From positions 1 through 64,000 of the forward strand of contig CACVAS010000036.1 in assembly GCA_902727855.1 (NCBI GenBank): a DNA stretch of 64,000 nucleotides, in the 5' to 3' direction. Below the pieces are notes generated by a model. That model made no database searches. It was given only the letters and a program-made list of their open reading frames with translations, and was not told the DNA's origin. Source of the DNA: an uncultured Sulfurovum sp. (GTDB taxonomy: Bacteria; Campylobacterota; Campylobacteria; Campylobacterales; Sulfurovaceae). A program made the position numbers and the translations under genes. Of the stretch, positions 8,300 through 37,967 are shown piece by piece; within the stretch, counting starts at the first letter, position 1, and every line of letters starts with the position of its first letter.

Positions 8300-8335
8300 T
8301 TTTACTCCTTTTCTTTTATTATAGCCTATATTCCC

Positions 8336-9484: not shown

Positions 9485-9660
9485 TGTTTTTCTTTTGTAT
9501 GTTCGGGGCTAAAGCCTCCGCTTCCTTGGTTTTTGGCACTAATTAAACTTCTTAGAATCAGTGCTTTATCTCCGCCTATACCAAAACTATACACCCTACC
9601 CCTGCAGGACTAAAGTCGCCATTTCCGTGACTCTTGGAATCGCTATTTTAGCTCCGTTTG
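9485..9660. other. Intergenic region with two CTAAAG hairpin units
   Basis: Two short related units, one around GGGGCTAAAGCCTCC (9505-9519) and one around GGACTAAAGTCGCC (9607-9620), each a small stem over a TAA(A) loop followed by a TTCC box. They sit upstream of the RAYT gene and resemble degenerate REP hairpins of a second type. No gene seen. Confidence 0.4.
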
Positions 9661-10722: not shown

Positions 10723-10783
10723 CTTATCATTTGCCCTTAGCTATTTTGGGTATTATATCAATAATTGATTAGGAGTTACTAAC

Positions 10784-13255
10784 GTGAACAATCTAAAAGT
10801 ACAAATAGAAGCGTTACTATATGAAAATGCAGCAGATTTTGAGATAGCCAAAGTCCTCAAAAAAGAGAGCAAAGTTTATTTTGACACACTAGAAGAGACC
10901 TTTGCTACCTCTGGAGGCAAAGATTTTCTTGTGAAACACACAAAAAAAATTGACAGTATCTTAAAACTCATTTACAAAGTTGCCCATCGTTCAATGTTTG
11001 GGGACTATGTACCTATGAAAAACTCTATACCCTTGTCTCTTGTAGCCTTAGGTTCATATGGAAGGGAACAACTCTGTGTACATTCAGATATCGATTTGAT
11101 GATTGTCTATAAAGAGATACCTGGATATAACACCAAGGAGATGATCGAAAAAATCCTCTATATCTTATGGGACACAGGGTTGAAATTGGGTCACCGTGTA
11201 CATACTGTTGAAGAATTATACGAGGTATCTAAAACGGATATTACCATAAAGACTGCACTTATAGAGTCTCGTTTTATAGAAGGCTCTCATTTTATCTGGA
11301 CTGAGACACAAAATGCAATTAGTCAAATACGTCACGATAATGTAGAAGAATTTATACATCTTAAACTTGAAGAGCAAGCAAATAAACACAAAAGATATCC
11401 TATAACCATGGAGCCAAATCTTAAGGATGGTGAAGGTGGCTTTAGAGATGCTAATCTTGTCTATTGGATTGGAAAAGTACTCTTTAATACTGACAATATC
11501 AAATCACTCCCCTCAAATATTATAGCTGACAAGGAGTATAAAGAATTTCGTATTGCCTTAGAGTTTTTATTTCGTGTTCGTTCTGCTTTACATATTGTTA
11601 CCAAAAGAAAAGAAGACAAACTACGCCTAGACCTTATACCCGATGTGGCAAAACTACTTGGTTATGATATGAATCAAAAAAGCCATATGCGTTTTGCTTC
11701 TAAAGTTATAGAAAACCTAAAAAGCATTAGACTCTATAGTATGATATGGCGTGATGCACTCACACATACCTATAAAAAAGAAGATCTCACAAAGAGTTAT
11801 ATTTATCCACAAAAGTCTGCAAAAGACTTTAATACTGTGCTCAATCGTCTCATTGACTCTGCAGACAAACCTTTTACTGCACACGCTACACTTTTACAAA
11901 AACTCATCAATATGCCAAAACCTGAACGTCTTGACAGTACCTTATATAGTAGTATATCTAAGCTCTTTATGCGTCCAAATGTCTACTCCGTCTTGGTCGC
12001 TCTGTCTTATGCAAGGCTGCTCCCATACACCATCCCCCCTATGAAAAAAGTGATTAATTTACCACAATTTGACGGATACCATCAATACGCTGTAGATACT
12101 CATTCTTTACTTTGTATCTACCATTTAGAACACATAAAAGACGATTTGATACAAAGTCTTTGGGATAGCTTGAATGTTGAAGAACAAAAGATGCTAAAAA
12201 TAGTTACACTCTTACATGATGCGGGGAAAGGACGTAAACGTGACCATCATTATGTTGGGGCATCACTCTTTAAAGTATTTGCATCTAAGTTAGGTATGGA
12301 AGACTCACTCATACAAACAGGGGAAACCCTCATTCATTACCATACACTGATGTCAAAGGTGGCTCAAAGAGAAGACCTCTATGCTGAAGCGGTGATACTC
12401 AATTTTGCTGCACATTTTAAAACACAAAAACGTCTAGACATGATATACATTTTAACCTATGCTGATATGTCTGGTGTGGGAGACGATATCTATAACTCAT
12501 ATTCTGCTAAGCTTATACGTACGCTCTACAAACAATCTTCTATGGTACTAGGACAATCTAAAAGGCTAGATGAAGCAGCCAAACGTGCAAAAAAAATCGC
12601 TTCACTAAACCGTAATACACAGTTTAATTCACTTACGCGATTACAGCAAAAGAAAATTGTAGCTATTCCTTCAAACTTATTATTTTTACGCTACACACCC
12701 AAACGCATTTTAGCTATTACCTCAAGAGCATTTGAAACCAAAGACTATACCTATAATATTTCAAATGAAAAATATTTAACCATAGAAATCATACGAAAAA
12801 GCACTTTCAATCTTAGCTATTTACTAGGAGAGCTATCTAATCTTGATGTAGTCAATATGGATATTTGTAAACTCTTTAATGATCTTAAATATTTTAAAAT
12901 TGATTTTTCAGAAACTATTGATGAAGATGAGATAGGGTTTGCTGAAGAGATGATACGTAAATCTTTTACTCCCCTCAATAACAAGATACCTTTAAAAGCA
13001 AGTATGTCAAAAAAAGAGATTGACATAGACTGTGAACACTCAAAAACCTATGCCATTATGCATATTAATACTAAAAATCAAAAAGGTCTACTCGCGTATA
13101 TCATAGACATGTTTGATGATATGGGAATTGATATTGTCACTGCAAAAGTACATACACTTAAAAACAGAGCTAGAGATATGTTTCTCATCGAGAAGAATGG
13201 AAACTTTTGTCATAATGTCGACAAAATAATTGAAAAACTTGCAGGTGCAAATTAG
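10784..13255 (+). CDS. glnD: [Protein-PII] uridylyltransferase / uridylyl-removing enzyme
   Basis: 823 aa, starting with GTG eight bases after AGGAG. The nucleotidyltransferase domain has GSYGREQLCVHSDIDLM (about 90); the HD phosphohydrolase domain has LLHDAGKGRKRDHH (about 490); two ACT-like domains fill the last ~150 residues. Senses glutamine and modifies PII to control nitrogen assimilation. No glnB or glnA is in the window. The glmS start lies 13 bp downstream, so glnD-glmS may be cotranscribed, both glutamine-linked. Confidence 0.9.
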   Translation: MNNLKVQIEALLYENAADFEIAKVLKKESKVYFDTLEETFATSGGKDFLVKHTKKIDSILKLIYKVAHRSMFGDYVPMKNSIPLSLVALGSYGREQLCVHSDIDLMIVYKEIPGYNTKEMIEKILYILWDTGLKLGHRVHTVEELYEVSKTDITIKTALIESRFIEGSHFIWTETQNAISQIRHDNVEEFIHLKLEEQANKHKRYPITMEPNLKDGEGGFRDANLVYWIGKVLFNTDNIKSLPSNIIADKEYKEFRIALEFLFRVRSALHIVTKRKEDKLRLDLIPDVAKLLGYDMNQKSHMRFASKVIENLKSIRLYSMIWRDALTHTYKKEDLTKSYIYPQKSAKDFNTVLNRLIDSADKPFTAHATLLQKLINMPKPERLDSTLYSSISKLFMRPNVYSVLVALSYARLLPYTIPPMKKVINLPQFDGYHQYAVDTHSLLCIYHLEHIKDDLIQSLWDSLNVEEQKMLKIVTLLHDAGKGRKRDHHYVGASLFKVFASKLGMEDSLIQTGETLIHYHTLMSKVAQREDLYAEAVILNFAAHFKTQKRLDMIYILTYADMSGVGDDIYNSYSAKLIRTLYKQSSMVLGQSKRLDEAAKRAKKIASLNRNTQFNSLTRLQQKKIVAIPSNLLFLRYTPKRILAITSRAFETKDYTYNISNEKYLTIEIIRKSTFNLSYLLGELSNLDVVNMDICKLFNDLKYFKIDFSETIDEDEIGFAEEMIRKSFTPLNNKIPLKASMSKKEIDIDCEHSKTYAIMHINTKNQKGLLAYIIDMFDDMGIDIVTAKVHTLKNRARDMFLIEKNGNFCHNVDKIIEKLAGAN

Positions 13256-13268
13256 TATTGGAGAAAAT

Positions 13269-15077
13269 ATGTGTGGAATTGTAGGCTACTTAGGCAATGA
13301 AGAGAAAAAAGAAATTTTACTTGATGGTCTTCAAGAACTTGAATACCGTGGCTATGACTCAGCTGGTATTGCTGTTATTGAAGGCGAGAAACTCTCTAAT
13401 TATAAAGCCATTGGTAAACTAGAAAACCTTAGAGAAAAAACCAAAAACTACAGTAGCGAAAACTTTGGTATATCTATAGGACATACACGCTGGGCAACCC
13501 ATGGCAAACCTACGGAACTCAACGCCCATCCACACCTAGGTGCCTACTCTTACGTTGTGCACAACGGTATCATAGAGAACTATCAAGAACTTAAAAAAGA
13601 GTTACAAGACGATGGTGTAAATTTTTTAAGCCAAACCGATACAGAAACCATTGTACATCTTTTCGAGAAAAAACACAAAACTGCCAACTCTGTTTTTTCT
13701 GCCTTTGAACAAACTATAGAAAGACTAGACGGTGCCTATGCCACACTACTTATCACTGAAGCAGATGTCGATACTATTTACTTTGCAAAAAATGGTTCAC
13801 CTATGCTCATTGGATTTAATGGTTCAGATATTCATTTTGCATCTTCAGATACGCCTATCATTGGTAAAGCTTCTGAAGTCTATTACTTAGAAGATGGTGA
13901 ATATGGTTATGCCAAACAAGGTGAACTCAAACTTTTTGATGCCAATGGTGAGAAAAGTTTTACAAAACAACCCCTCACCGCAGACAAAGTCTCTGCTCAA
14001 AAAGACGGCTACCGTTTCTTTATGGAAAAAGAGATCTATGAGCAGCACCGTGTCATGAGTGAGACCATGATGGGAAGAGTACTAGATAACAGTATAGACT
14101 TTGACGAAATAGACAAATCATTTTTTGATGGCATTAAGGCTATAAAAATATGTGCATGTGGTACATCTTACCACTCTGCGCTTGCTTCTGCCTATCTTTT
14201 TGAGCGTATTGCAAAAGTGCGATGTGACATCGAAATAGCTTCAGAATTTAGATACAAAGAACCATTACTTTCAGATGACACACTGTTTATTACCATCTCA
14301 CAAAGTGGTGAGACTGCTGACACCCTAGAAGCCCTTAAAATGGCAAAACGTGCAGGACTAAAAAGTCTAAGCATTTGTAATGTAGATAACTCTTCGATAG
14401 TAAGAGAAAGTGACGCTGCCATACTCACACGTGCGGGCATAGAAAAAGGGGTTGCAAGTACCAAAGCATTTGCCACACAAACCATGGTACTTTGGATGCT
14501 TTCTCTCTATATGGGTCAAGAGAAAAACAGTATCTCAAAAGAGCTTCTTCAAACAGAAATAGATGCTATGCTCCATACTCCAAAAGCACTTTTAGTTACA
14601 GACGACTTACATGCCAAACTTCACCGTTTAAGCAAGCGCTATCTACATGGTCATGGCTTCTTCTTCATAGGACGTGACATCTTTTTCCCACTTGCCTTAG
14701 AAGGCGCACTAAAACTGAAAGAGATTTCTTACATGCATGCAGAAGGCTACCCTGCAGGAGAGATGAAACACGGCCCCATCGCCCTTGCAGACTCAGAACT
14801 CTTCACCATTGCACTCATGCCTAAAACCATGCATTACGACAAAATAAAATCTAATGTAGAAGAGTTAAGCGCTAGAGATGCTACCATCTGTGCTATCTCC
14901 CCTCTACCTTTCGACTTAGCAGATGACTTCATACAAACGAAGTATGACTCTCACCCTATGCTAGAGTTTTTTGAGATGATGGTAGTAACACAACTATTGG
15001 CTCTTGAGATTTCTGTAAGACTTGGAAATGATGTAGATATGCCGAGGAATTTGGCTAAGAGTGTGACTGTAGAATAA
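13269..15077 (+). CDS. glmS: Glutamine-fructose-6-phosphate aminotransferase
   Basis: 602 aa from the ATG at 13269, which places the catalytic Cys directly after Met (MCGIVGYLG) as the Ntn-type glutaminase needs; the longer upstream frame would bury it. GGAG precedes this ATG. N-terminal glutaminase class II domain (GHTRWATHG), then two SIS sugar-isomerase domains (ICACGTSYHSA; ISQSGETADT), and the usual end NLAKSVTVE. Makes glucosamine-6-phosphate for peptidoglycan and LPS. No glmS ribozyme is apparent upstream. Confidence 0.96.
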   Translation: MCGIVGYLGNEEKKEILLDGLQELEYRGYDSAGIAVIEGEKLSNYKAIGKLENLREKTKNYSSENFGISIGHTRWATHGKPTELNAHPHLGAYSYVVHNGIIENYQELKKELQDDGVNFLSQTDTETIVHLFEKKHKTANSVFSAFEQTIERLDGAYATLLITEADVDTIYFAKNGSPMLIGFNGSDIHFASSDTPIIGKASEVYYLEDGEYGYAKQGELKLFDANGEKSFTKQPLTADKVSAQKDGYRFFMEKEIYEQHRVMSETMMGRVLDNSIDFDEIDKSFFDGIKAIKICACGTSYHSALASAYLFERIAKVRCDIEIASEFRYKEPLLSDDTLFITISQSGETADTLEALKMAKRAGLKSLSICNVDNSSIVRESDAAILTRAGIEKGVASTKAFATQTMVLWMLSLYMGQEKNSISKELLQTEIDAMLHTPKALLVTDDLHAKLHRLSKRYLHGHGFFFIGRDIFFPLALEGALKLKEISYMHAEGYPAGEMKHGPIALADSELFTIALMPKTMHYDKIKSNVEELSARDATICAISPLPFDLADDFIQTKYDSHPMLEFFEMMVVTQLLALEISVRLGNDVDMPRNLAKSVTVE

Positions 15078-15098
15078 TGTAGACAAAAGGGTATTTAA

Positions 15099-16103
15099 AT
15101 GGCTATTTATAAATGTGATGCATGTCACTATATACAAGAAACCTCAAATGAATATATTGGGAAAAAAGCAAAATGCCCTCAGTGCAAAGAAGTGGGTGTA
15201 ATCCTCAATACAATTTCTTATTTGCAAGAAGTAACTGAAAAAAATATTTTACTAGAAAAAAAACTACTAGACAAAGACACAATAAAAGAGAGAAACACCT
15301 CAAAAAATATTGATAATATATTGCAAGTGCAAGACAGTATCCCTATTAAAGATTTTAATATACACAACACTGATATTTTTTCTCAGAAAGACCATTATAC
15401 TCCCATTGTAACATGGTTTAAAGATAGATATATTCAAGCTAAAGTTGATCCAAAGATGATGGATACCACAGGTTTTTTTGATGAGGTTGCACTATATATA
15501 GGACGTAATTTTAATAATATAGGTTCAATTGTGAATCAAATAAAATATATTCAGAATAAACAGTATGATACAGTTAAAATTAATTTATCAAAAAACAATA
15601 ATAATGAAATCGAACAAATTATTGAATTTTGTAAGATGTTACACCATTATTCTTTTATTGCAAGATATAATTTCCAGAAAAAAGATAAGATTATTTACTT
15701 AACACTCTCAAATATTACAAAAATAAAAAACTTTTTTAATGGTTTATGGATGGAATGGTTTGTATTCATCCAGATTATTTCTTTTTTTAAAGAAAAACAT
15801 ATGACCTTACCTATCGTCAGAGGTATGAACATTACTTTCCAAAACAAAGATAAAAGTGAACTTGATATTTTTTTCATTAATAATCAAGGAGAACCAGTGT
15901 GTATTGAATGCAAAACTGGGGAGTTTAGGCAAGATTTAAATAAATACTTCTTACTACAAAAAAAACTTAATATCAAAAAAGAACACTTTCTTCTTTGTGT
16001 GTTTGGATTAGAAGAAGAACAAGCTAAGGGGTTAACCAGTATGTATGAAATAACATTAGTGAATGAAACGACACTTATTCCTCATATCAAATCACTTTTT
16101 TAA
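15099..16103 (+). CDS. Zinc-ribbon protein with DUF1887/PD-(D/E)XK-like nuclease C-terminus
   Basis: 334 aa, much more AT-rich and Lys/Asn/Ile-rich than glmS. N-terminus is a small zinc ribbon (CDAC at 6-9, CPQC at 26-29), then a coiled, charged linker. The C-terminal ~120 residues have GLWMEWFVF, then SELDIFFIN and CIECKTGEFRQDL, the E...D...ExK order of PD-(D/E)XK nucleases, most like the DUF1887 (Card1/Can2-like) fold. No CRISPR array or cyclic-oligonucleotide (CARF) domain is obvious. Probably a horizontally acquired nucleic-acid-cleaving, possibly defence, protein; function not known. Confidence 0.55.
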   Translation: MAIYKCDACHYIQETSNEYIGKKAKCPQCKEVGVILNTISYLQEVTEKNILLEKKLLDKDTIKERNTSKNIDNILQVQDSIPIKDFNIHNTDIFSQKDHYTPIVTWFKDRYIQAKVDPKMMDTTGFFDEVALYIGRNFNNIGSIVNQIKYIQNKQYDTVKINLSKNNNNEIEQIIEFCKMLHHYSFIARYNFQKKDKIIYLTLSNITKIKNFFNGLWMEWFVFIQIISFFKEKHMTLPIVRGMNITFQNKDKSELDIFFINNQGEPVCIECKTGEFRQDLNKYFLLQKKLNIKKEHFLLCVFGLEEEQAKGLTSMYEITLVNETTLIPHIKSLF

Positions 16104-23436: not shown

Positions 23437-25386
<1,950 letters not shown>

Positions 25387-25680: not shown

Positions 25681-26610
25681 TTAAAGACGTTTCTGTAAGG
25701 TATCCCTATCACTATTGTTGTCAATATTACTATCACCACCCGTGGTAGACTTTATAGTTGTTTCTAAAATAAACTTCCCAACTTCACCCTCTTCAACAGT
25801 CATTGACCCCGTAAGTGCAAAGCGGGATTGTGCATTTGGCATTTGGGAACCATTGTAGGTAATACTATAATCAAAGGGGTCACTATTATCAAAGTCCCAA
25901 AGGTTATTTTGTACACTTAAACCTTTAAAGGTTGTAAGTTCAACATCATAATTGAGTGTAATAGATTTGTTTTTAGGTATGGTTATTTCTAAAGGCTCAC
26001 CTGGCTGATAAGTTCCACCGACAGCGAGATCTCTTACCAAAGTATCAAATGAAAATTGATGAGTAGCTTGACCATAAACCACACCCCCATAAACAGTCAA
26101 TATAGGTCTATAATCTGGGTCTGAAACTTCAACTGTTGAGGTATATTCACTTGCACTCATATCTTCATTGGCTACTGTTACTTCAAAGCCATTTAATGGA
26201 TTTTCAGAAGTTGATTCTTCCGTTACATCAACAGGAATATTGACAGATATATTTAAGTCTGCAGGAATGTCTATATTTTGTGTGAAAATCACCTCATGGG
26301 TTACATCATCATAACTTAATGTGAAATAGTCACTTATATCTGGTGAGATTAAAGATAAATCATGATTTTTTAATTCAACGGCATTTAAGTCTACGGTTAA
26401 TACACAAGAAGGTAAACCTTCTTCATTATCTAAAGGGATGGGTCTATCAGAAATGTCCGAAAGTACAAAACTAGTAGTGCCCTCAGAACCTAAAGTCATA
26501 GGCGCTGGTGAAACTACAGGTGAAGTGAGAGAAATGGGACAAGTAGCCCATAAAGGTGTTAAATATACTATCCCTAAAACTATAACTTTTAGCTTATGAT
26601 ATATTATCAT
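25681..26610 (-). CDS. Secreted protein with N-module and shared C-terminal module
   Basis: 309 aa. Signal peptide to about residue 22 (VYLTPLWATC). Residues 40-160 look like a diverged form of the N-module of its neighbours (LNAVELKNHDLSLIS, YFTLSYDD). Residues 165-309 are the same ~145-residue C-terminal module as in the 1153- and 1157-aa proteins, beginning PDYRPILTVYGGVVYG and ending [17 protein letters not shown]. Last gene of a c-di-GMP-riboswitch-led operon, 30 bp after the 160-aa gene, with AGGAG before the ATG. Function unknown; a surface or matrix role is inferred. Confidence 0.65.
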   Translation of the reverse strand: MIIYHKLKVIVLGIVYLTPLWATCPISLTSPVVSPAPMTLGSEGTTSFVLSDISDRPIPLDNEEGLPSCVLTVDLNAVELKNHDLSLISPDISDYFTLSYDDVTHEVIFTQNIDIPADLNISVNIPVDVTEESTSENPLNGFEVTVANEDMSASEYTSTVEVSDPDYRPILTVYGGVVYGQATHQFSFDTLVRDLAVGGTYQPGEPLEITIPKNKSITLNYDVELTTFKGLSVQNNLWDFDNSDPFDYSITYNGSQMPNAQSRFALTGSMTVEEGEVGKFILETTIKSTTGGDSNIDNNSDRDTLQKRL

Positions 26611-26640
26611 CCTATACTCCTGAAATTAAATTATTTCATA

Positions 26641-27123
26641 TTATAACATACCATCAGCTATAGCATCTCCTTCAGAGCTCATATTGACTAAAAAGTCATT
26701 TCCGGAACTTTGTTTAATATTTATATTTGCAATAACAGAAATACTAATACGGTACCTCATATTTGCACTCAAGTTTTCATTTACTTTTTGTTGAATAATC
26801 ACCATATTATCAGCCTCTAAATATCTAACTGAAAACTTATCTGTGACATCTTTACGCTCATCAGTCAAATCTACTATGGAAATATATTCAATGTCACTAT
26901 CTTCAACTCTTGTTTTACCCATAGCAACCGTTATTTTAATTCTATTGTTTCCTAAAACTTCAATATTATTTTTTTCTATAAGTAAAAACGTAATCTCTGC
27001 TTTTTGGGTTGCTTCCAAGTATGAAGGAACCATTCTTGCTTCTTTCAAGCCTATCAACGGTGCAGCCTCCAATAAAGCTGCACATATTAACAAAAAAATA
27101 AATGTAATATTTTTTTTCATCAT
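26641..27123 (-). CDS. Secreted stand-alone N-module protein
   Basis: 160 aa. Signal peptide MMKKNITFIFLLICAALLEA then one domain homologous to residues 25-167 of the 1153-aa protein: shared positions include EITFLLIEKNNIEVLGNNRIK, DVTDKFSVRYL, and the end FLVNMSSEGDAIADG, where it stops after two more residues. So it is either a subunit made of the N-module alone or the 5' remnant of a larger repetitive gene. It starts 6 bp after the 1157-aa stop. No known family recognised. Confidence 0.6.
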   Translation of the reverse strand: MMKKNITFIFLLICAALLEAAPLIGLKEARMVPSYLEATQKAEITFLLIEKNNIEVLGNNRIKITVAMGKTRVEDSDIEYISIVDLTDERKDVTDKFSVRYLEADNMVIIQQKVNENLSANMRYRISISVIANINIKQSSGNDFLVNMSSEGDAIADGML

Positions 27124-27129
27124 ATAAAC

Positions 27130-30100
27130 CTAAAGTTTTTTCTGCATCGTGTCTCTGTCACTGTTGTTGTCGATATTGCTATCCCCACCTGTTCCTGACT
27201 TAATAGTAGTCTCTAAAATAAATCTACCTACTTCACCCTCTTCAACTGTAAAGGTTCCCGTAATAGCAAATCTTGACCTATTCGTTGGGATATCTGTTCC
27301 TAAGTATGTCATCACATAATCAAAGGCATTAGTATCATCAAAGCTCCACAAGTTATTTTCTACATCATCTCCTTTAAAGAGTGTCATTGTCGAATCATAA
27401 CTTAAAATAAGTGCCTCATTTTTAGGTATTCTAATAATCAATGGATTATTCGCATCATAGGTACTTCCTGGGATGACATTAAGTACTAGTGTATCAAAGG
27501 AGAAGTCATGGACACCTGCACCATAGACTATTCCACCATAGACAGTAAGTACTGGTTTAAAGTCTGGAGCAATAGCAGTCACTGTCACCGTTACATTGGC
27601 TTCATCACAGTTATTTGGGTTTAGGTTTTCACAGATGGTATAGTTAAACGTGTACTCACCTGCTGGTGTAGTACCTGTTGGGATGGTCACTGAACCTGTT
27701 GCTGGGTCTACTACCAGTGGTGTGGTGTTATTGACCTCTGTGATATTCACATCATCCCCTAGTATCACTGGGTCACCATCTAGTGTATCGTTATTGGTGA
27801 CATTGGCTATCACTTCTCCCACTTGACCTGTTGCGTTATCATCGATTGCATCAATGACCAACACCAACACAGAGTTATCTCTATAGTCAAGGTCTGTTGT
27901 CATAGGACTAGCATCACTTCCATCATCTGCTGTATCATCATCGGTATCATCTAAAGTGAAGATACCACCATCATAGGCTTTACCATTTGTATCATTATAG
28001 TCATCTGCATTTTCTGATACTGTATTGGCTAAACCATTCACACCTACTGGGTCAGTGGTACTTCCATTGACATCTGCGTTGAGTCCTTGTCCTGACTCGA
28101 CAATATCAAATATGCCATCATTATCTGAGTCTAAGTCTAGGTAATCTACTGTGTCATTATTATCTGTATTGACTGGTGTAACACCTGTACTATTTGTTTC
28201 ACCCGACGTATTAGCATCATAAGCATCATCAAGTCCATCATTATCTGCGTCTACTCCACTTGGTAAAATATACCCTTGTGTAGTTTGTGCTTCTATGTTA
28301 TCTGGGATTCCGTCGTTGTCGCTGTCTAGGTCTAGGTAGTCCTCAAGTCCATCATTATCGCTATCTGTATAATAGTCATACATTCTATATATTTCTGTAC
28401 TTCCCCCTAAACTTGAACCTACTAAACTTGTTTGAAAGCCTGTTACAACCAGTTGATCAATCGGTTCCATAAATTGAATGAAAGTATACACATGATTAGG
28501 TGAACCTGTAGCCGTTCCATCAGAAATTATTTCTATAGCACCTGACGGTAAGGTAAGAAGCTTTTGAGTCTCAACCACATCATAAATTATTTCACCATTA
28601 ATAAAATAAGTAGAGACTAATGGAGTAATCGCTACACCGTTTCTATATCCGACAAGGCGTAAAGCTTCATGATTATCTAAGTCCCCCAAAATGAATCCCA
28701 GTCTTTTTGGTATCAAAGAAGTAAAATCTAAGGTATAACTTTCTTCACTACCCAAAGGAAGAGGGCTTCCTGATAAACCTTGATAAACATGACTATATAA
28801 CTGTAATACTCCATTATCAGTACTATTATAAACTAATGCATTAACAAAGTCCGTATGAGTAATCGTCTCAGTATAGTTATGTTCAGCACCTAATACATCG
28901 GTAAAAGTATAATCACGATTTACATCTAAATCATATACAACACCATAATCTGGATTATAGTTATCATCAATCTCAAGACTTGGGCTTACATCATTATTAG
29001 CATATTGATTAATGATATTCCTTACCCTTTCTTCCTTATCCAAAATCCCATCATTATCATCATCTATGTCTATGTAATCTGGTATACCATCCGCATCTGT
29101 ATCTTCTAGTACTGTTACAATAATATTTGCATCATCACAGTTACTTGGGTTGGCTATCTCACATAATGTATACATCTCTATATACGTACCCGCAGGTGTA
29201 GATGGAGGTACAGTTACTGTACCACTTAAAGTGTCAATAATTAATGGCGTAGTATTCGTTACAGATGTAATATTTACATCTGTGCCTAATAGGGTGCTAT
29301 TAGTATCTAATGTATCATTGACAGTCACATCTGCTATTGCCACACCTCCTACACCTGTTACTGAAGTATTGAAGTCATCAACTGCATCTATCACCAACAC
29401 CAACACAGCGTTATCTCTATAGTCAAGGTCTGTTGTCATAGGACTAGCATCACTTCCATCATCTGCGGTATCATTATCGGTATCATCTAAAGTAAAGATG
29501 CCACCATCATGGGCTTTACCATTGGTATCATTATAGTCATCTGCATTTTCTGATACTGTATTGGCTAGACCATTCACACCTACTGGGTCAGTGGTACTTC
29601 CATTGACATCTGCGTTGAGTCCTTGTCCTGACTCGACAATATCAAATATGCCATCATTATCTGAGTCTAAGTCTAGGTAATCTACTGTGTCATTACTATC
29701 TGTATTGACTGGTGTAACACCTGTACTATTTGTTTCACCCGACGTATTAGCATCATAAGCATCATCAAGTCCATCATTATCTGCGTCTACTCCACTTGGT
29801 AAAATATACCCTTGTGTTGTTTGTGCTTCTATGTTATCTGGGATTCCGTCGTTGTCAGAGTCTAGGTCTAAGTGGTTATCAATACCATCATTATCTAGAT
29901 CGCAATCTGGTAATGTGTTCTGCGACAAGTTTACATAGTAACGATCGTTAGCAGCTTCTAAACTAGTGATTTTTACTTCTATTGTACCTGCTGGTATTAA
30001 TGTAGATGTTCCTCCCTCATGTGGTGTAGTACCAGGTAAAGGTATAGCTGTAAACGTATCTGTTCCTATCCCTGTGCCGTTTATAAGGGTTTCTATCATT

Positions 30101-30603
30101 GTATTACTGATTGTATAACTATAATCAAATCCTGCTATATGTAAATACATAGGCTCTGTAAGTGCCTGTGTAAATGTAAATATTGTCTCTTCAAGACCAG
30201 CACCACCGGTCTGTGAAGTATGCACGATTTCAAGTCTTTCTGAAGTAGAAAAATCTGCACCTAGTGCATTCAACCCACCATCACCAATCGTAATGAATTC
30301 ATCTGTTTTGATTTGTAAAGGTAGAGAATGAGGACTTGTTGTTGTAACTGTAACACCTACACCATTTAATGTACCAGATATCTGTGTAGCAGTCTCAGTC
30401 AGTTGATTCCAGTCCACCAATGGGCTAGAGCATTCGAAGCTATCCAAAATCCCATCATTATCATCATCTATATCAATAGTATTATCTATGCTATCTCCAT
30501 CGGTATCTAGTGCCATAGCTTGTGTTGGGATAAAAAGTGCAAACATTATGACTAGCATAAGTTTGATAAATAGATGTATTGTTTTATTATTCGTATATTC
30601 CAT
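27130..30603 (-). CDS. Giant secreted repeat protein, TSP3-like Ca-binding and Ig-like repeats
   Basis: 1157 aa. Signal peptide to about 32. Thrombospondin type-3-like acidic repeats ([30 protein letters not shown]) recur in three blocks and should bind calcium. Between them lie a jelly-roll-like segment (about 60-210), two Ig-like NDTL repeats of the kind seen in the 1153-aa protein, and another unique domain (about 535-730). The last 145 residues are the shared C-module. A 464-bp DNA segment is present twice within the gene. Very acidic, poor in Cys. Probably an adhesin or matrix protein made under c-di-GMP control. AAGGAA precedes the ATG. Confidence 0.75.
27857..28320 (-). repeat. 464-bp direct repeat, copy 2, inside the 1157-aa gene
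   Basis: Near-identical to 29393-29856 at a constant offset of 1536 bp, with only scattered substitutions. Encodes the TSP3-like unit from [15 protein letters not shown] to [12 protein letters not shown]. Low divergence suggests recent duplication or gene conversion; it is a natural site for deletion or expansion. Confidence 0.85.
29393..29856 (-). repeat. 464-bp direct repeat, copy 1, inside the 1157-aa gene
   Basis: Partner of 27857-28320. Both copies are followed in the protein by an Ig-like NDTL repeat, so the duplicated unit in the protein is larger (about 200 residues) than the near-identical DNA core. Confidence 0.85.
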
Positions 30604-30636
30604 ACTATTTCCTTAATTCATAAAAAATTATATTAA

Positions 30637-30717
30637 ATAACCCGGCTATCTGCTCACATAGTAAATATTGAGGGGGAGACCCGTGGCTTTCCGTCCTACA
30701 TTCACATGTAGTTTGGC
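30637..30717 (-). promoter_or_regulatory. c-di-GMP-I (GEMM) riboswitch, gene-proximal copy
   Basis: Minus strand: GCCAAA, a P2 hairpin CTACAT-GTGA-ATGTAG with a GNRA tetraloop, GACGGAAAGCCACGGGTCT, a P3 arm and AGCCGGGTTA: the conserved order of GEMM-I. The usual CGCAAAGC reads CGGAAAGC here. Only 33 nt lie between the aptamer 3' side and the start codon, with no terminator, so control of translation start is likely. Confidence 0.88.
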
Positions 30718-30789
30718 TTTAAATTGTCTGTTTGAGTGGTGGTTTATGAGAAACAACCAAAGTTACCCAAATTAAATATTCGTTTCTAA

Positions 30790-30871
30790 GTAACCCGGCT
30801 GTCTGTTCCAATAGTAAATATTGGGGGGGGAGACCCGTGGCTTTCCGTCCTACATTCACATGTAGTTTGGC
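30790..30871 (-). promoter_or_regulatory. c-di-GMP-I (GEMM) riboswitch, promoter-proximal copy
   Basis: Second aptamer about 72 nt upstream of the first in the same transcript, with identical P2 and GACGGAAAGCCACGGGTCT core and ending CAGCCGGGTTAC. The P3 side has a run of eight G/C (30833-30840) where the other copy has five. Between the aptamers is a small hairpin (GGTTGTTT / AAACCACC, one mismatch). Confidence 0.88.
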
Positions 30872-30984
30872 ATTTGTTTATATATCTCTAAAAAATATAA
30901 AACTGCTAAACTATATCATAATATAAGTTAAAAATATTTAAATTTGATTTTGGATTATTTGGAATATATAAAAATAAGTTAAAT

Positions 30985-31009
30985 CTACCCAGCTAAAGAA
31001 GCTGGGTAG
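30985..31009 (-). terminator. Terminator of the 1153-aa gene
   Basis: Perfect 10-bp stem CTACCCAGCT (30985-30994) / AGCTGGGTAG (31000-31009) twelve bases past the stop, followed on the minus strand by a T-rich tail (ATTTAACTTATTTTT). Separates the 1153-aa gene from the riboswitch-led operon. Confidence 0.8.
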
Positions 31010-31021
31010 TATTGTATGTGG

Positions 31022-34000
31022 TTAGAGTTTTTTCTGCATCGTGTCTCTGTCACTATTGTTGTCGATATTGCTATCGCCACCTGTGCTTGACTTAATGGTA
31101 GTTTCTAGTATAAACTTACCTACTTCACCCTCTTCAACACTAAAGGTTCCTGTAATGGCAAATCTTGATCTATTCGTTGGGATATCTGTCCCTAAGTATG
31201 TCATCACATAATCAAAAGAGTCAGTATCATCGAAGCTCCACAAGTTATTTTCTACGTCATCTCCTTTAAAGAGTGTCATTGATGGGTCATAACTTAAATT
31301 AAGTGCAGAATTTTTAGGAATTCTAATAATCAATGGATTACTCGCATCATATGGGCTATCTGCTACTACATTAAGTACCAGTGTGTCAAATGAGAAATCA
31401 TGGACGCCTTCACCATATACAATCCCACCATATACTGTAAGTACTGGTTTATAGTCTGGCTCTGGTACATCATCTACAATGACTGCTTCATCCATACCTT
31501 CTGGAGAAGTATTTCCTGCTGGATCTGTAACAGTTGCTTTAACTATAATAGGATCTACTTGCTCTGGGTAACTTGTTGTATAGCCATTGTCTAGCAACTC
31601 TTGTGTCACTGGTACATCTGTTGTACTTCCATCTGGGTTTGTAACGGTAAGAGTATCTCCTACTTCTGCATCTACTGGAAGTGTAATATTTACATCTACT
31701 GTACCATTAAGCTCTGTATATCTTGAAATGTTACCATCATCATTCGTATCTTCTGTAATCACTACAGTTGGTACACTTGGTGCAGTAGTATCTATCGTAA
31801 TTGTATCGATAGGTGAGATTGGTGATGTAATATTGTTCTCTCCTGTTTGTGTTACTGTTGCATTGTGTTCACCTTCTGTAAGAGGCACAGTTGGAATAAG
31901 ACTAAACGTACCTTCTGCTGTACATGTTGTACTTGGGTCTATATCTGCACCATCTATTTGAACAGTTACTGTGAGGTTTGCTTCACATGTACCGTTTATT
32001 TCTGGTGTTGTGTCATTTGTGTCTACATTGGTTGGAGTAACACCTTCTGTGTCTTTACCATCAATGATTGTAATCTCTGGTAGAGACGGTTGAACATCGC
32101 CATTTGCTAGATAACATGTATAATCTTCATTAAGTTCCATATTAAAGTGTGCTACGTGTTGACGACTATTTGCACTATCTACATAGTTTTCAGGTGATGT
32201 TTTATCACCCACATATACAGGAGTAAGATTATTGTCTATACATGTAATGTTGACAAATTCATATTGTGCAACATCATTTTCAAATATATGATATGTTCCT
32301 ACATTAGCCACGTCTTGAGTCACGCCTGAGACCATGTTAAGTACCGTTGTTCCTCCTGTATGTGCATCATCCACTTCAAAAGTAAATGCTGAAGCTGTAA
32401 GCGTACCACCATTATCATTGACTACTTGTTTTACGATTGTCAGTGTAGGTAATATATCTATAAGTACTGCACTATCTGAAGCTTCTGGGCCAGTATTTCC
32501 TGCCTCATCCGTAACCGTAGCCTTTACTACCACTGGCGTATCATCAGATGGTGCTGGGTATGAAGTATGGTATCCATTATCAAGCATATCTTGAGTCACT
32601 GGTACATCTGTTGTAGTTCCATCTGGGTTTGTAATAGTAAGTGTATCGTTCACTTCTGCATCTACTGGAAGTGTTATAGTAACATTCACATCTCCTACTA
32701 ACTCATCTTTTCTAGAGATATTTCCATCATTGTTAATATCTTCTGTAATGACAACAGTTGGAGCAGATGGTGCAACATCATCTGTCACAGTCACGGTTAC
32801 ATTCGCATCATCACAATTGCTTGGATTGAGTGTCTCACAAAGTGTATAGGTTTCTGTGTAAGTGCCTGCTGGTGTATTTGCTGGTACCGTTGCTTCTCCA
32901 GTAAGAAGATTTACTTCTAATGGTGTATTGTCTGTCACTGCTGTAAGATTTACATCAGTTCCTAAGGTTACTGGGTTTGCATCCAATGTGTCATTGGTTG
33001 TTACATCGGCAACTGCTACGCCACCTGTGCTACTTAAAACTGTACCCGTATCATCAACTGCGTCTATGACTGCTGCTGTGACAGTCACGGTGACATTCGC
33101 ATCATCACAATTGCTTGGGTTGAGTGTCTCACAAAGTGTATAGGTTTCTGTGTAAGTGCCTGCTGGTGTATTGGCTGGTACCGTTGCTTCTCCAGTAAGA
33201 AGATTCACTTCTAATGGTGTATTGTCTGTCACTGCTGTAAGATTTACATCAGTCCCTAAGGTTACTGGGTTTGCATCCAATGTGTCATTGCTTGTTACAT
33301 CTGCAACTGCTACGCCACCTGTGCTACTTAAAACTGTACCCGTATCATCAACTGCGTCTATGACTGCTGCTGTGACAGTCACGGTGACATTCGCATCATC
33401 ACAATTGCTTGGATTGAGTGTCTCACAAAGTGTATACGTTTCTGTGTAAGTGCCTGCTGGTGTATTGGCTGGTACGGTTGCCTCTCCAGTAAGAAGGTTT
33501 ACTTCTAATGGTGTGTTGTCTGTGACTGCTGTAAGATTTACATCTGTCCCTAAGGTTACTGCATTTCCACCCAATGTGTCATTGTTTGTGACATCGGCTA
33601 CTGCTACGCCACCTGTAGTACTTAAAACTGTACCCATATCATCAACTGCGTCTATGACTGCTGCTGTGACAGTCACGGTGACATTCGCATCATCACAATT
33701 GCTTGGATTGAGTGTCTCACAAAGTGTATACGTTTCTGTGTAAGTGCCTGCTTGTGTATTTGCTGGTACCGTTGCTTCTCCAGTAAGAAGATTTACTTCT
33801 AGTGGTGTATTGTCTGTTACTGTAGTAAGACTTACATCAGTCCCTAAGGTTACGGGGGTTCCACCCAATGTGTCATTGGTTGTGACATCAGCTACTACTG
33901 TACCACCTGTGATACTACCGACTGTTCCAGTATCGTCGACTGCGTCTATATTAGATAGTGTATAAGTGTAATCACTAGAGTCACCATCAGCAATAGCATC

Positions 34001-34483
34001 GCCTTCTGAACTCATGTTTACTAAAAAACCATTACCTGGATTTGTAATTGGAGTATTTACTCTTACAGTCACAGGTACAACAGCACGATATATCATAAAT
34101 GCTGGTAAAGTCTCGGTACCTTTTTGTTGAATACGTACAGTATAATCAGGAGCATCTAAATAAGTTACATCAAATTTATTGGTCACATCAACGTCACCAT
34201 TTTGTGAGTCTAAAACTTTTACGAGTGAAGTATCTCCATTTTTTAGTTCCACCTTTCCTAAAGCAATTGTAAGCTTAAATCTATTGATACCGGGAACTTC
34301 AACATCGTTTATTTCCCTCATTAGAAAAGTTACATTACCCTCACCATTACTTTCTACCGCATCCAATGGTGACGGTTCTATGGCTGGTTGTGCTAAAGAC
34401 ATGAGCGGAGCAGCATGCAATGCTGTTGCTAACATGAATATAAATAGCATACTCAATTTAATATGTTTTTTTAGTATAAACAT
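31022..34483 (-). CDS. Giant secreted protein with four tandem NDTL Ig-like repeats
   Basis: 1153 aa. Signal peptide to residue 24 (ALHA-APL). N-module 25-175; four 98-residue Ig-like repeats 179-567 (each IDAVDD...NDTL...[18 protein letters not shown], with two Cys); two related Ig-like domains around 570-680 and 900-1000 (APSxPTVVITED, TDxAGNT); a domain at 680-790 (LTIVKQVVNDNGGTLT) like pilin-type Ig domains of Gram-positive surface proteins; another Ig-like domain near 810-900; shared C-module 1009-1153. Monocistronic, own terminator, no riboswitch upstream. Adhesin or matrix role inferred. Confidence 0.75.
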   Translation of the reverse strand: MFILKKHIKLSMLFIFMLATALHAAPLMSLAQPAIEPSPLDAVESNGEGNVTFLMREINDVEVPGINRFKLTIALGKVELKNGDTSLVKVLDSQNGDVDVTNKFDVTYLDAPDYTVRIQQKGTETLPAFMIYRAVVPVTVRVNTPITNPGNGFLVNMSSEGDAIADGDSSDYTYTLSNIDAVDDTGTVGSITGGTVVADVTTNDTLGGTPVTLGTDVSLTTVTDNTPLEVNLLTGEATVPANTQAGTYTETYTLCETLNPSNCDDANVTVTVTAAVIDAVDDMGTVLSTTGGVAVADVTNNDTLGGNAVTLGTDVNLTAVTDNTPLEVNLLTGEATVPANTPAGTYTETYTLCETLNPSNCDDANVTVTVTAAVIDAVDDTGTVLSSTGGVAVADVTSNDTLDANPVTLGTDVNLTAVTDNTPLEVNLLTGEATVPANTPAGTYTETYTLCETLNPSNCDDANVTVTVTAAVIDAVDDTGTVLSSTGGVAVADVTTNDTLDANPVTLGTDVNLTAVTDNTPLEVNLLTGEATVPANTPAGTYTETYTLCETLNPSNCDDANVTVTVTDDVAPSAPTVVITEDINNDGNISRKDELVGDVNVTITLPVDAEVNDTLTITNPDGTTTDVPVTQDMLDNGYHTSYPAPSDDTPVVVKATVTDEAGNTGPEASDSAVLIDILPTLTIVKQVVNDNGGTLTASAFTFEVDDAHTGGTTVLNMVSGVTQDVANVGTYHIFENDVAQYEFVNITCIDNNLTPVYVGDKTSPENYVDSANSRQHVAHFNMELNEDYTCYLANGDVQPSLPEITIIDGKDTEGVTPTNVDTNDTTPEINGTCEANLTVTVQIDGADIDPSTTCTAEGTFSLIPTVPLTEGEHNATVTQTGENNITSPISPIDTITIDTTAPSVPTVVITEDTNDDGNISRYTELNGTVDVNITLPVDAEVGDTLTVTNPDGSTTDVPVTQELLDNGYTTSYPEQVDPIIVKATVTDPAGNTSPEGMDEAVIVDDVPEPDYKPVLTVYGGIVYGEGVHDFSFDTLVLNVVADSPYDASNPLIIRIPKNSALNLSYDPSMTLFKGDDVENNLWSFDDTDSFDYVMTYLGTDIPTNRSRFAITGTFSVEEGEVGKFILETTIKSSTGGDSNIDNNSDRDTMQKKL
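32783..33949 (-). repeat. Four tandem 294-bp coding repeats
   Basis: Exact 294-bp period, corresponding to 98 codons, four copies (starts in protein at 179, 277, 375, 473). Near-identical DNA: differences are a few synonymous and conservative changes per copy. Repeat number may vary between strains. Confidence 0.9.
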
Positions 34484-34972: not shown

Positions 34973-37075
34973 TTAAAATTTGTAGTCAAGTCCAACGGTG
35001 ACTGATCTACCCGGTAAAGGTGCAGTCTCTTTGAGAAATGAGATATGGTTTCTTGCCACATCATCTGTCAAGTTGTTGGCTTTGAGCCAAAATTCAAGGG
35101 AACCACGCGTAAGATCATAGTGATATTTACTCGAAAAGTTTAACATAGTGTATCCATCAGTCGAAGTTTCGTTCTGTGCGACATTACGGCTTTTGTCTAC
35201 CCATTTATAAGTGATTTCACTATGTAAATCCATATGATCATGCTCTAGACAAAAGGTTGCATTGTATGGAGACATTCTTGGAATGTACCCACCACTGTCA
35301 AGTTCACCTTTCATCACATTAAACTGTGCGGAGAAAGTAAGATTATGAAGACCTAGTGTCTTTTTGTATTTCTCTTCTATACCAAGACCATAGACCTTAG
35401 CACCTACACCCAAAATTTGCCACACTGGACTAAGATGAAATGGGTCAAGTATCACGTCACCCGTTCCATCTACCATTGGTGATTGATAGATATAGTTTTC
35501 AAAGTCATAATAGTAAAGGCTGACTCTAGATGAAAAATTATCTGTATGCTTATAGATTGCATCTAAATCAAAGTTTATTGAGGTCTCTTTATCTAAATCT
35601 CTGTTACCATAGATATAACTCTCTGTTGCATGATGGAAACCATTCCAAAATAGCTCTTGTGAAGATGGGAGACGTTGCATATAAGCCAAAGAAACCTGAG
35701 TTTCGAGTGCTTCATTCCAACTATGCCACCAACCCAAAGAGAGACTCACTGCGACATCAGTATCATCTTCATAATAGTCACCATCTACAAGAGAATGCAT
35801 GAGCCAAGTCTCTTGCATATTACTTGGGTCTGCTGAGAGTTTTCTTGCTACGATGTTTGTGGCTAAACTTAACTCATCAGTCTCACCCATATAATGTTTA
35901 ACATTGAGAGCCATAAGAAGTTTTTGTTCCTCAGTATCTGGCATAGGATGACCATGAGAATAAGCAATACCTCTGTCATTATAATAATTAAGTAGGGAAA
36001 GTCCATCTTCTACACTGGTTCTAAGTGCACTTTCAAACTCTTGACATCTACCATGTTCATGACATACTTTAAGTTCATTACCAACCCACTCAAGACGGAA
36101 ATGTGCGTCTGTACTCTCTGCAAGCTTAAAGTCAAACTCACTACTTAAACTCTGTTGCTGCTGATCAAAAAGACCATCATACCGTCCTGCCTCACGCTCA
36201 AAATGAGTGTAGTCACTGTACTGATACTCAGTGATGACATTCTTTAGCTTACCAATAGACTCACTATGTAAAACAACACCATAACGCTGTTGCTCCATGA
36301 TAATATCTGTACGTTCTGTTGTTCTATTTGGTACACCATACTCTTTGTCCATAGTATCTGCATATAGTTTTACTGTATGTTCTGGCGATATCTTCCAACC
36401 TAATACACCATGAAACTGTTCACTGAAAGTATCTGTGTGTGCTACTGTTTTGCCATCACTTTGAAAGTTATCTGCTTCATTACTGTAGTAATTTAGGTTC
36501 ACAGAATAGTCATCTTGCGCATAGGCACTTTTGATGCTTGTTGTTCCAAAGCCAGTATCGGAGTTCATCGATATAGATGAGTCTAAAGAGAGACCTTTTT
36601 TAGGCAACTTTGCTTCATGCTCTTCCCCAAGCGTACGTATCACGCCTCCACTATAAGAGCCATAAAGTAAAGATGCCGGCCCTTTGACCATCTCTATACG
36701 TTCTACCATTCTTGCATTCAGTCCAACTGCATGGTCTTGACTCATAGCAGAGAGATCGTTAAGTGTAATCCCTCCTTGTGCGATACCTACACGATACCCT
36801 TCCATCCCACGTACAGTGGGTCTACCCACAGCAGGGCCATAGCTTGCACTATCTACCCCTAGTTGGTCAGAAAGGTAATCACCAAGCGTTTCGCCTGAAG
36901 AGTGGTTGGCTAATGTGCCTGTATCATAAGAGGTGTTGTAAGAGACTTCATCTGCTTGTAAGTGGATACTATGTGCATCCACGTTGATCTCTCCAAGCTC
37001 CACCTGTTCTGCGAGTAAGCTGGTACTTAAAAGTACCAGGCAAGCACTCACAGATAAATAGGATTTAGTGGTCAT
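34973..37075 (-). CDS. znuD: TonB-dependent receptor, ZnuD-like (zinc or similar metal)
   Basis: 700 aa from ATG 37075 (MTTKSYLSVS), overlapping the lipoprotein stop by 11 bp; a start six codons earlier is possible. Signal peptide ends LLAEQ. Plug: RPTVRGMEGYRV, DHAVGLNARMVERIEMVKGPASLLYG, closely following ZnuD. Barrel ends VTVGLDYKF. An external loop has VCHEHGRC (Cys/His) and another HGHPMP, likely metal-binding. Fur-family regulator upstream and ZnuABC nearby support zinc. Confidence 0.8.
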   Translation of the reverse strand: MTTKSYLSVSACLVLLSTSLLAEQVELGEINVDAHSIHLQADEVSYNTSYDTGTLANHSSGETLGDYLSDQLGVDSASYGPAVGRPTVRGMEGYRVGIAQGGITLNDLSAMSQDHAVGLNARMVERIEMVKGPASLLYGSYSGGVIRTLGEEHEAKLPKKGLSLDSSISMNSDTGFGTTSIKSAYAQDDYSVNLNYYSNEADNFQSDGKTVAHTDTFSEQFHGVLGWKISPEHTVKLYADTMDKEYGVPNRTTERTDIIMEQQRYGVVLHSESIGKLKNVITEYQYSDYTHFEREAGRYDGLFDQQQQSLSSEFDFKLAESTDAHFRLEWVGNELKVCHEHGRCQEFESALRTSVEDGLSLLNYYNDRGIAYSHGHPMPDTEEQKLLMALNVKHYMGETDELSLATNIVARKLSADPSNMQETWLMHSLVDGDYYEDDTDVAVSLSLGWWHSWNEALETQVSLAYMQRLPSSQELFWNGFHHATESYIYGNRDLDKETSINFDLDAIYKHTDNFSSRVSLYYYDFENYIYQSPMVDGTGDVILDPFHLSPVWQILGVGAKVYGLGIEEKYKKTLGLHNLTFSAQFNVMKGELDSGGYIPRMSPYNATFCLEHDHMDLHSEITYKWVDKSRNVAQNETSTDGYTMLNFSSKYHYDLTRGSLEFWLKANNLTDDVARNHISFLKETAPLPGRSVTVGLDYKF

Positions 37076-37967
37076 GGTATTCGTCACTCTCACCTATACC
37101 TGTAAAGGTTGTTGGTGTAAATCCTGCTGGTAAAAATCTATCTGTATCCCAAGTACTATGTACATGGAAGTCTTCTCCATGAGAATCCACTAAATAGATT
37201 TTTTGGCTCTGTGCAGAAAACACAAGTACACCATAGTCATCGTTTTTGATGATACCACTTTGGTTTTGGCTACACTGACTCACACCATCAAGTAAAAATG
37301 TAGATTGTGAAGCTACTAAGCCTTCTTCATTCTCCTCAAATATATACATTTTTCCTGTAGTTGTTAGTGCGATATGAGGTGTTGCTTCTTCCTCTTCTCC
37401 ATCATCATGATCTTCATGTTCAAAAACAAAAAAGTTACAAAGTGTTTCACCACTTGGCAATGCTTCAGCAATTTCATTTTTGATTTCATTTTGCTCTGTT
37501 AAGTGTGCATTAAATGACACCAATGCAGCTTTTTGCCCATCACTAGAAACTGCTGGATCAAACTCATCTGCACTGTGTGCTGCAAAGACAGGTACACTGT
37601 TTTCTTCATGAAAGTGTCCAAGGTAATGCATGTCTTCATAGGTAAAACTACCATTGGTAATATCAAAATATTCATCTACCATAACAATTTTTTGATCCAC
37701 ACCAGCATCTGTCTCATGGTTCCACATGACTAACTGACCATTTTTACCTGTCATATCATAGTTCTCACCAGCTATATTCATGCTTGAAGCAGTTTCAGTA
37801 TCTGTATTATATAGGTACTGTGCAGAGCTTGCATTATCAAAAAAGATCAGTGTCTTACCATCAGGTAAATCAATCGCTGTTGTTTCCTCATTACTTGAAG
37901 AGCTACTTCCACATCCTGTCATTATCATTGCAGTTGCTATTGCACTTGCTATCCATATTTTTTTCAT
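37065..37967 (-). CDS. His/acidic-rich lipoprotein of the metal uptake operon
   Basis: 300 aa. Lipobox MTGC (C19) then a Ser-rich linker. Scattered His/Glu/Asp clusters (YLGHFHEEN, HEDHDDGEEEE, HGEDFHVHS, and the end EYHDH) and a beta-propeller-like repetition. Periplasmic or surface metal-binding lipoprotein upstream of, and overlapping, the ZnuD-like receptor; probably hands metal to or from it. No named family recognised. Confidence 0.65.
   Translation of the reverse strand: MKKIWIASAIATAMIMTGCGSSSSSNEETTAIDLPDGKTLIFFDNASSAQYLYNTDTETASSMNIAGENYDMTGKNGQLVMWNHETDAGVDQKIVMVDEYFDITNGSFTYEDMHYLGHFHEENSVPVFAAHSADEFDPAVSSDGQKAALVSFNAHLTEQNEIKNEIAEALPSGETLCNFFVFEHEDHDDGEEEEATPHIALTTTGKMYIFEENEEGLVASQSTFLLDGVSQCSQNQSGIIKNDDYGVLVFSAQSQKIYLVDSHGEDFHVHSTWDTDRFLPAGFTPTTFTGIGESDEYHDH

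Follow-up and report, generated by a model that had tools for sequence, protein, structure and literature searches.

A family of C-terminal domains and an N-terminal module linked to it at a Sulfurovum locus, with relatives in Bacteroidota and a possible role in docking

The window analysed here is a 64,000-nucleotide stretch of an uncultured Sulfurovum sp. (contig CACVAS010000036.1, positions 1 to 64,000). It contains a locus of four minus-strand open reading frames of 309, 160, 1157, and 1153 aa (P0001, P0002, P0003, and P0004, respectively), which is flanked by thiC (23437-25341) and a TonB-type receptor gene (34973-37093), both named by eye. P0004 is the upstream gene and is separated from P0003 by 418 bp, and the gaps between P0003 and P0002 (6 bp) and between P0002 and P0001 (30 bp) are operon-like in spacing. 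An apparent Sec signal peptide is present on all four proteins (by eye). The content of two recurring modules, an N-module and a C-module, divides the proteins into types N...C (P0004), C (P0003), N (P0002), and N-C (P0001), with the following features.

31022..34483, minus strand: P0004, 1153 aa, type N...C; signal peptide (by eye), N-module, four Ig-like repeats (by eye), Big_13 and SpaA_2 domains, C-module
33983..34414, minus strand: N-module of P0004 (E 1.0e-71 to the A2 profile, which includes the P0004 copy)
31025..31456, minus strand: C-module of P0004, up to the stop codon (profile and pairwise comparison)
27130..30603, minus strand: P0003, 1157 aa, type C; signal peptide and Asp-rich DxDxDG repeats (by eye), Ig-like repeats in common with P0004, C-module
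27133..27564, minus strand: C-module of P0003 (profile and pairwise comparison)
26641..27123, minus strand: P0002, 160 aa, type N; signal peptide (by eye) and N-module alone, starting 6 bp past the P0003 stop codon
26647..27066, minus strand: N-module of P0002 (profile match)
25681..26610, minus strand: P0001, 309 aa, type N-C; signal peptide (by eye), diverged N-module, C-module, starting 30 bp past the P0002 stop codon
26137..26547, minus strand: N-module of P0001 (profile match; predicted beta-sandwich by AlphaFold2)
25684..26115, minus strand: C-module of P0001 (profile match, pairwise comparison, AlphaFold2)

The C-module is 144 aa long and ends the 309-, 1157-, and 1153-aa proteins, as the initial annotation had proposed, with identities of 63, 63, and 89 % among the copies of P0001, P0003, and P0004. 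The same annotation had an N-module opening 'two or three' of the four proteins and standing alone in the 160-aa protein; the count is three (P0004, P0002, and P0001), and a search of P0003 with the N-module profile (A2) gave no match. The P0001 and P0004 N-modules share 32 % identity, and the P0001 copy has an E of 1.3e-52 to a profile containing that copy. The middles of the proteins had been taken as unrelated, but P0003 and P0004 share an Ig-like repeat of ~95 aa (IDAVDD...) that is ~50-60 % identical and present in two and four copies, respectively (by eye), and P0001 has no middle at all between its modules. A reading of P0002 as a broken gene was dropped in favour of a real one, given that its start is its own, that a signal peptide can be made out (by eye), and that its spacing resembles that of an operon.

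Comparison of P0001-P0004 with Pfam and NCBIfam gave nothing inside either module near its cut-off (the best match in an N-module is 0.0061, with 16.8 bits against a cut-off of 32.4), which agrees with the earlier suggestion that the modules may be undescribed. The T9SS sorting domains (TIGR04183, TIGR04131, NF033708, PF18962, and PF13585) give no match to P0001-P0004 up to E 1. When 23 C-modules of both phyla in which the module is found (see below) were compared with Pfam at E 0.1, six families were matched, none better than 0.026, and these include neither T9SS sorting families (CHU_C among them) nor DUF11/CLIPPER (PF01345, PF24346). Dockerin families are likewise absent from the Pfam and NCBIfam matches of the window proteins and from the Pfam matches of the 23 C-modules. 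On these catalogue searches, a known Ig or sorting domain was dropped as the identity of the modules. DUF11/CLIPPER-type matches do occur in a database relative, P0008, and sit before its C-module, outside the module. No earlier description of either module was found among the literature titles and abstract openings searched, a set that reaches little into subscription journals.

The C-module is predicted to be nearly all-beta, and both modules are predicted beta-sandwiches of a common kind whose structural neighbours include integrin, pilin, and CLIPPER; Foldseek with the whole P0001 model returns generic Ig tandems with a query TM below 0.3 among the 50 matches listed. P0001 has no match among PDB sequences up to E 1, and further PDB sequence searches were unconvincing, with best values of 0.0035 (a glucanase/xylanase chain) in one and 0.18 in another. 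The last ~20 residues of the C-module are unplaced in the predicted models. Most C-modules end in a GGE/GGD...NN motif, and over 48 aligned C-modules a Trp is conserved in 48/48, two Asn in 47/47 and 46/47, and a Gly pair in 41/48 and 44/48. A conserved Lys is present in 39/48 rows. An internal isopeptide bond as in CLIPPER (a Lys-Asp/Glu-Asn triad), for which this Lys and the two Asn would be candidate residues, was considered and dropped.

The genome from which the window derives (3.1 Mb in 170 contigs, with a contamination estimate of 9 %) encodes seven C-module proteins, including the three of the window (profile E 1.9e-95 to 1.9e-41), and has six N-module matches, one of which is weak (2.2e-9) and lies outside the window and the contig C107 locus. 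The C107 locus (L008) consists of a type C gene (1211 aa), a 113 bp gap, an N...C gene (619 aa), a 49 bp gap, and a gene for an N-protein of 1216 aa without a C-module, whose C-terminal end is hydrophobic and then charged (by eye); 15 bp beyond it lies a gene for a 197-aa outer-membrane barrel (PF13505). Contig C128 codes for two type C proteins of 1450 and 844 aa, and contig C147 for a lone 246-aa N-protein whose C-terminal half resembles TIGR04183 weakly (0.0086, below the cut-off). Duplication within this genome is evident. A search of the genome for the SprA translocon (SprA_N, PF14349) gave no match, and two Spirosoma genomes have one gene each that the same model hits over two stretches. 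On this result, and with only two weak TIGR04183 matches below the cut-off in the window's genome, we dropped the idea of a T9SS there.

We searched for the C-module in draws of 121, 395, and 397 genomes, and for the N-module in draws of 60 and 121. Among 60 close relatives either module is found in a single genome, which is the window's own, and among 397 Campylobacterota genomes the C-module occurs in two, the window's own and one of another genus in the same family, with two matches. Database relatives of P0001 include P0015 (309 aa, 78 % identical over the whole length) and P0016 (310 aa, 46 % identical), and further relatives are P0018 (a CAP-domain protein), P0019, P0020, P0006, and P0008, with P0006 and P0018 named at source as Campylobacterota MAG proteins. 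Outside the phylum, a contig scan for the window's C-modules turned up two Spirosoma loci and nothing further; in whole-genome searches at E 0.01, Spirosoma validum yields 78 C-module matches and S. endophyticum yields 31. Campylobacterota and Spirosoma C-modules align by hhalign with a probability of 99.4 % (E 2.2e-21, ~27 % identity). The module is present in 5/296 (A3 profile) and 6/395 (A9 profile) genomes drawn from Bacteroidota, and in 24/121 (A3) and 43/121 (A9) genomes of the S. validum family, counts that place it, within the reach of the profiles, mainly in one Bacteroidota family with a sporadic occurrence elsewhere. In a tree, two Bacteroidota C-modules (L115 and L119) group with those of the window (support 98/90), and those of the second Campylobacterota genome are placed elsewhere with weak support. 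The C-module is a member of a family of C-terminal domains in Bacteroidota that is as yet without a name. The initial annotation had listed, as findings that would speak against it, good matches of the modules to known Ig-like or sorting domains and confinement to these genes of this genome, and the catalogue and genome searches bear out neither; the modules are found in other genomes and in another phylum, and the C-module there is carried by diverse passengers.

The position of the C-module is constant. In Spirosoma the profile match stops 3-6 aa short of the C-terminus in 81 of 83 ORF records (82 distinct, made up of 71 of the 78 S. validum matches, the 7 weakest being omitted, and 11 of the 31 S. 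endophyticum matches), and the remaining two are partial matches with sequence visibly running on to the end; at loci L114-L158 the match lies 0-13 aa from the C-terminus. What precedes it varies widely: among 46 S. validum C-proteins, those of a set of 60 that are no longer than 1250 aa, 51 Pfam families are matched at 1e-5, and no family recurs in more than 4/46. The constant ends with exchangeable passengers seen by the initial annotation hold true in Bacteroidota. The 25 of these 51 families listed include subtilases, a carboxypeptidase, a sugar dehydrogenase, an ice-binding-like adhesin, RCC1, cadherin, and SprB repeats; the 25 listed of 39 NCBIfam families include ExeM nuclease, alpha-amylase, choice-of-anchor Q (10/46) and A (1/46), and M36 peptidase models of three kinds (T9SS, rhombosortase, and myxosortase). 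In another genome, a C-protein has a match of 6.1e-51 to the T9SS-dependent M36 model. To judge from the model names, these passenger families elsewhere end in a surface anchor, and the C-module thus seems to occupy the anchor slot. A simple family of adhesin paralogues was considered and dropped, as the modules are found on enzymes and structural passengers alike.

In Bacteroidota the C gene is commonly followed by a partner gene. At 26 of 34 loci (S. validum excluded) an ORF of at least 180 codons starts within 200 bp downstream of the C gene; four of these ORFs run off the stretch, one ends in a C-module (L149), and 21 code for proteins of 341-373 aa with a signal peptide (by eye), an N-module-like domain of varying resemblance, mostly a PLPVTL-type segment, and a T9SS-like end. 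Twenty of 22 N-partners match TIGR04183 and 19/22 match PF18962. The 11 NCBIfam families matched by 19 distinct C-proteins at these loci include no T9SS sorting-domain model. One of the 19 is the C-protein with the T9SS-dependent M36 match mentioned above. Profile comparison relates the Campylobacterota N-modules to those of five Bacteroidota partners with a probability of 97.5 % (E 5.6e-12) and to those of all 19 with 92.9 % (E 3.7e-7), and the partner N-modules, with a mean column identity of 26 %, are diverse enough that they may not all be one family. A comparison of the C profile with the N profile gives no match.

Linkage of the two modules was examined across the 121 genomes of the S. 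validum family. The 43 with a C-module comprise S. validum itself, 7 with weak matches only (E over 1e-6), and 35 used for linkage, and an N-module is detected (A5 profile) in 33 of the 121, 32 of them among the 35. Fifty-three of 61 N matches follow a C-module on their own strand at a distance of 72-238 bp, or 37/45 after subtracting the 16 that trained the N profile and were linked by choice; by our own arithmetic a single N match placed at random would be so positioned with a chance of ~1 in 10,000. Four of the eight other N matches (G391 C13, G407 C163, G432 C128, and G449 C13) share contig, strand, and frame length with a C-module, so that N and C are probably on one protein. Seen from the C side, 28 of 81 C genes have no N match directly downstream (S. 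validum and 20 weak rows excluded), or 48/101 including the weak rows, which have E values of 6.7e-6 to 9.1e-4 and include every match from 7 genomes. With the A5 profile S. validum, for all its 78 C matches, gives no N match; an N-like partner is present downstream of one of its C genes (L211, by eye), indicating that this profile misses some. In S. validum and in S. endophyticum the N-like proteins seen are single ones only. L115 and L119 have no N-like gene within 1.5 kb downstream, and neither of the two C loci in the second Campylobacterota genome has an N neighbour.

Longer arrays are also shared. The order C, N...C, N plus tail, seen at contig C107 of the window's genome, recurs in Bacteroidota at L167 and L169, near-identical loci of two genomes that represent one lineage, with a third copy (L166) in which a foreign ORF separates the first two genes. 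It is probably present at L160 too, where the third ORF contains an unknown base that leaves its end unsure, and the stretches at L159 and L161 reach no further than the first two genes, which are in this order. At L162, L163, L165, and L168 one N gene is flanked by two or three C genes, and S. endophyticum encodes a small N-C protein (326 aa) like P0001.

The two modules also co-diverge. Of 34 C/N pairs 32 were used (L194 and one short row were left out), and 28 remain after dropping near-identical pairs; for these the distance matrices of C and N correlate with r 0.54 (0/2000 permutations as high), compared with 0.26 for C and the tail of the N-protein and 0.38 for N and the tail. The partial correlations are 0.49 for C-N versus 0.08 for C-tail, and the difference between 0.54 and 0.26 (0.28) has a jackknife standard error of 0.11. 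Gene linkage alone should raise both the C-N and the C-tail correlations. The tail domain may simply carry less signal, and we regard the co-divergence as moderate evidence for C-N contact, short of decisive.

The find at this locus is real and larger than the initial annotation stated, comprising an uncatalogued C-terminal domain family together with a linked N-terminal module. The best-supported mechanism, which we consider an even call, is docking of the C-module onto the N-module, such that passengers would be tied head-to-tail to an anchored partner. The signal peptide (by eye) would take each protein into the periplasm, where the C-module of one protein would bind the N-module at the mature N-terminus of another, probably through the strongly conserved last ~20 residues of the C-module. 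Type C proteins would then form tips, type N...C proteins links, and type N proteins with another tail the bases, giving either head-to-tail chains or many passengers hung on one base, presumably at the cell surface. In Bacteroidota the T9SS type A domain would export and anchor the base. No T9SS translocon was detected in the Campylobacterota genome, and the base there must be held otherwise; the hydrophobic C-terminal tail of the C107 N-protein, with its adjoining outer-membrane barrel gene, may be an example of such an anchor. We put forward more tentatively, as possible but doubtful, that assembly is sortase-independent and either non-covalent or of a latch type, that any C-module passenger can slot into a chain on an anchored N-protein, and that the system is T9SS-borne in Bacteroidota and was passed on, perhaps on two occasions, to Campylobacterota in which no T9SS is detected. 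The C genes without an N neighbour count against docking, including L115 and L119, whose Bacteroidota C-modules share a group with the window's in the tree, and the two loci of the second Campylobacterota genome. The initial annotation had spoken of a secretion, anchoring, or polymerisation system, and this class is the right one, with the evidence leaning to putative docking of C onto N, in a system that is rare in Campylobacterota.

Several known systems offer partial parallels. In the cohesin-dockerin pairs of cellulosomes many passengers carry one terminal docking domain and fewer receptors are present, with a beta-sandwich partner, an arrangement to which the putative C-N pair would be analogous; dockerins, however, are small calcium-binding helical repeats with a duplicated motif, whereas the C- and N-modules are both predicted beta-sandwiches. 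The NCBIfam choice-of-anchor families name the passenger and not the anchor, the same passenger occurring with different C-terminal anchors, and the S. validum matches to Q and A end in the C-module, which would be a new anchor class. The T9SS type A domain (TIGR04183/PF18962) is likewise an Ig-like beta-sandwich ending many secreted passengers and is present on the partner gene of the C-proteins, but the C-module has no sequence match to it, is ~140 aa long as opposed to models of 72-75 positions, comes with an N-module partner gene, and occurs in a genome without a detected SprA. Excerpts of a report on the type B C-terminal domain have it held at the surface by a PorP/SprF-like outer-membrane barrel (PMC9143113), which resembles the present case in the dedicated, here putative, partner for a C-terminal domain; the partner there is a barrel and here an N-module protein with its own sorting tail, and CHU_C is not found on the 23 C-modules. 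DUF11/CLIPPER domains, described in part of their source as CnaA-like isopeptide domains (9IFR; PMC12617251), differ in that they form a tandem stalk and not a single terminal copy, and DUF11 does not match the 23 C-modules.

The main rival to docking is that the C-module is itself an outer-membrane export or sorting signal, that is, a further T9SS C-terminal domain class borrowed by Campylobacterota for another translocon, with the N-protein a co-transcribed co-substrate. The C-terminal position is as expected for such a signal, and the 19 C-proteins lack a T9SS sorting model, though SprA is encoded in the two Spirosoma genomes, each with 62 TIGR04183 matches (E up to 0.01); moreover, the C-module fills the anchor slot in M36, ExeM, and choice-of-anchor A and Q families, whose relatives carry T9SS, GlyGly, or MYXO tails, and type A domains are Ig-like sandwiches too, according to excerpts of one source (PMC12618676). 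The window's genome nonetheless has seven C-modules and no SprA_N match, and an export signal alone leaves the directly downstream N gene, the N...C links, and the C-N co-divergence unexplained. The T9SS C-terminal domain types named in the excerpted part of a review are A, B, and C only (PMC10202324). We regard this explanation as somewhat unlikely.

Alternatively, both modules could be Ig-like domains of the ordinary kind that forms the stalk or cap in fibrillar adhesins (with a CnaA or DUF11-like fold), which were copied as gene ends by duplication and do not pair. This would fit the common predicted fold with its integrin, pilin, and CLIPPER neighbours, the Ig-like repeats among the passengers, the duplication within the genome, and the C genes that stand without an N neighbour. 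Stalk domains occur in tandem and at any position, a habit unlike that of the C-module, which is terminal in the ORFs checked in two phyla at ~27 % identity, and most N matches directly follow a C gene; on balance this is improbable. Less probable again, and in our view very unlikely, is a role for the small N- and N-C proteins as secreted chaperones, or as partners in maturation, that maintain the fold of the large C-proteins within the periplasm and are not permanent docking sites. The short distance between the modules (72-238 bp) and the composition of P0002, which is N-module only, are in keeping with such a role, but a T9SS type A domain on 20/22 Bacteroidota N-proteins is not, and the N-module also heads proteins of 600-1200 aa.

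A C-terminal domain that ends dozens of secreted proteins of one genome, and for which Pfam and NCBIfam gave no matching entry, suggests a class of bacterial surface proteins with a mode of sorting or attachment that is still unnamed. If the proposed docking of C onto N is correct, it would explain how large adhesins and enzymes without a known T9SS signal could arrive at the surface or be retained there, and how such a surface repertoire could function in a phylum without T9SS, and it would offer a two-part protein clip.

At E 0.01, the genome of Spirosoma validum has 78 matches to the C-module, exceeding the 62 to the T9SS type A domain, and N-partners, the N-module genes directly downstream of C genes, are hardly detected. 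The numbers of C-modules and N-partners are thus out of balance in this genome. A recognisable N-partner follows just one of the four loci of a C-module subfamily in G310.

L039-L098 and L202-L220: Spirosoma validum C-module loci
L206, L210, L212 and L214 (G310): C-module subfamily with NNIYVRxxNAL-type tails

Two ORFs resembling parts of mobile elements were recognised by eye.

L166, 6572-8296: 574-aa ORF, group II intron reverse transcriptase-like
Window, 9026-9484, minus strand: 152-aa ORF with a PNHIHIL motif

The former separates a C gene from an N...C gene in a Bacteroidota cluster that is unbroken in L167 and L169; the latter, with its motif, resembles a REP-associated or IS200-type transposase.

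The assembly of the window's genome is 3.1 Mb, whereas the same-genus genomes listed for comparison are 1.1-2.6 Mb, and its contamination estimate is 9 %. A mixture of strains is possible, but ordinary housekeeping genes are present on the module-bearing contigs, as judged by eye. Its other module-bearing contigs include C147 and C107.

Contig C147 (L189), 6242-6982: solitary N-module protein, 246 aa
Contig C107 (L008), 5847-15764: second module cluster

The C-terminal half of the solitary protein weakly resembles the type A sorting domain model TIGR04183, scoring below the cut-off. The second cluster encodes, in order, a C-protein, an N...C protein, an N-protein with a hydrophobic tail and, starting 15 bp 3′ of the N-protein gene, an OMP_b-brl barrel. 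In the proposed chain, in which C-modules would dock head-to-tail onto N-modules, this barrel protein may serve as the foot in the outer membrane.
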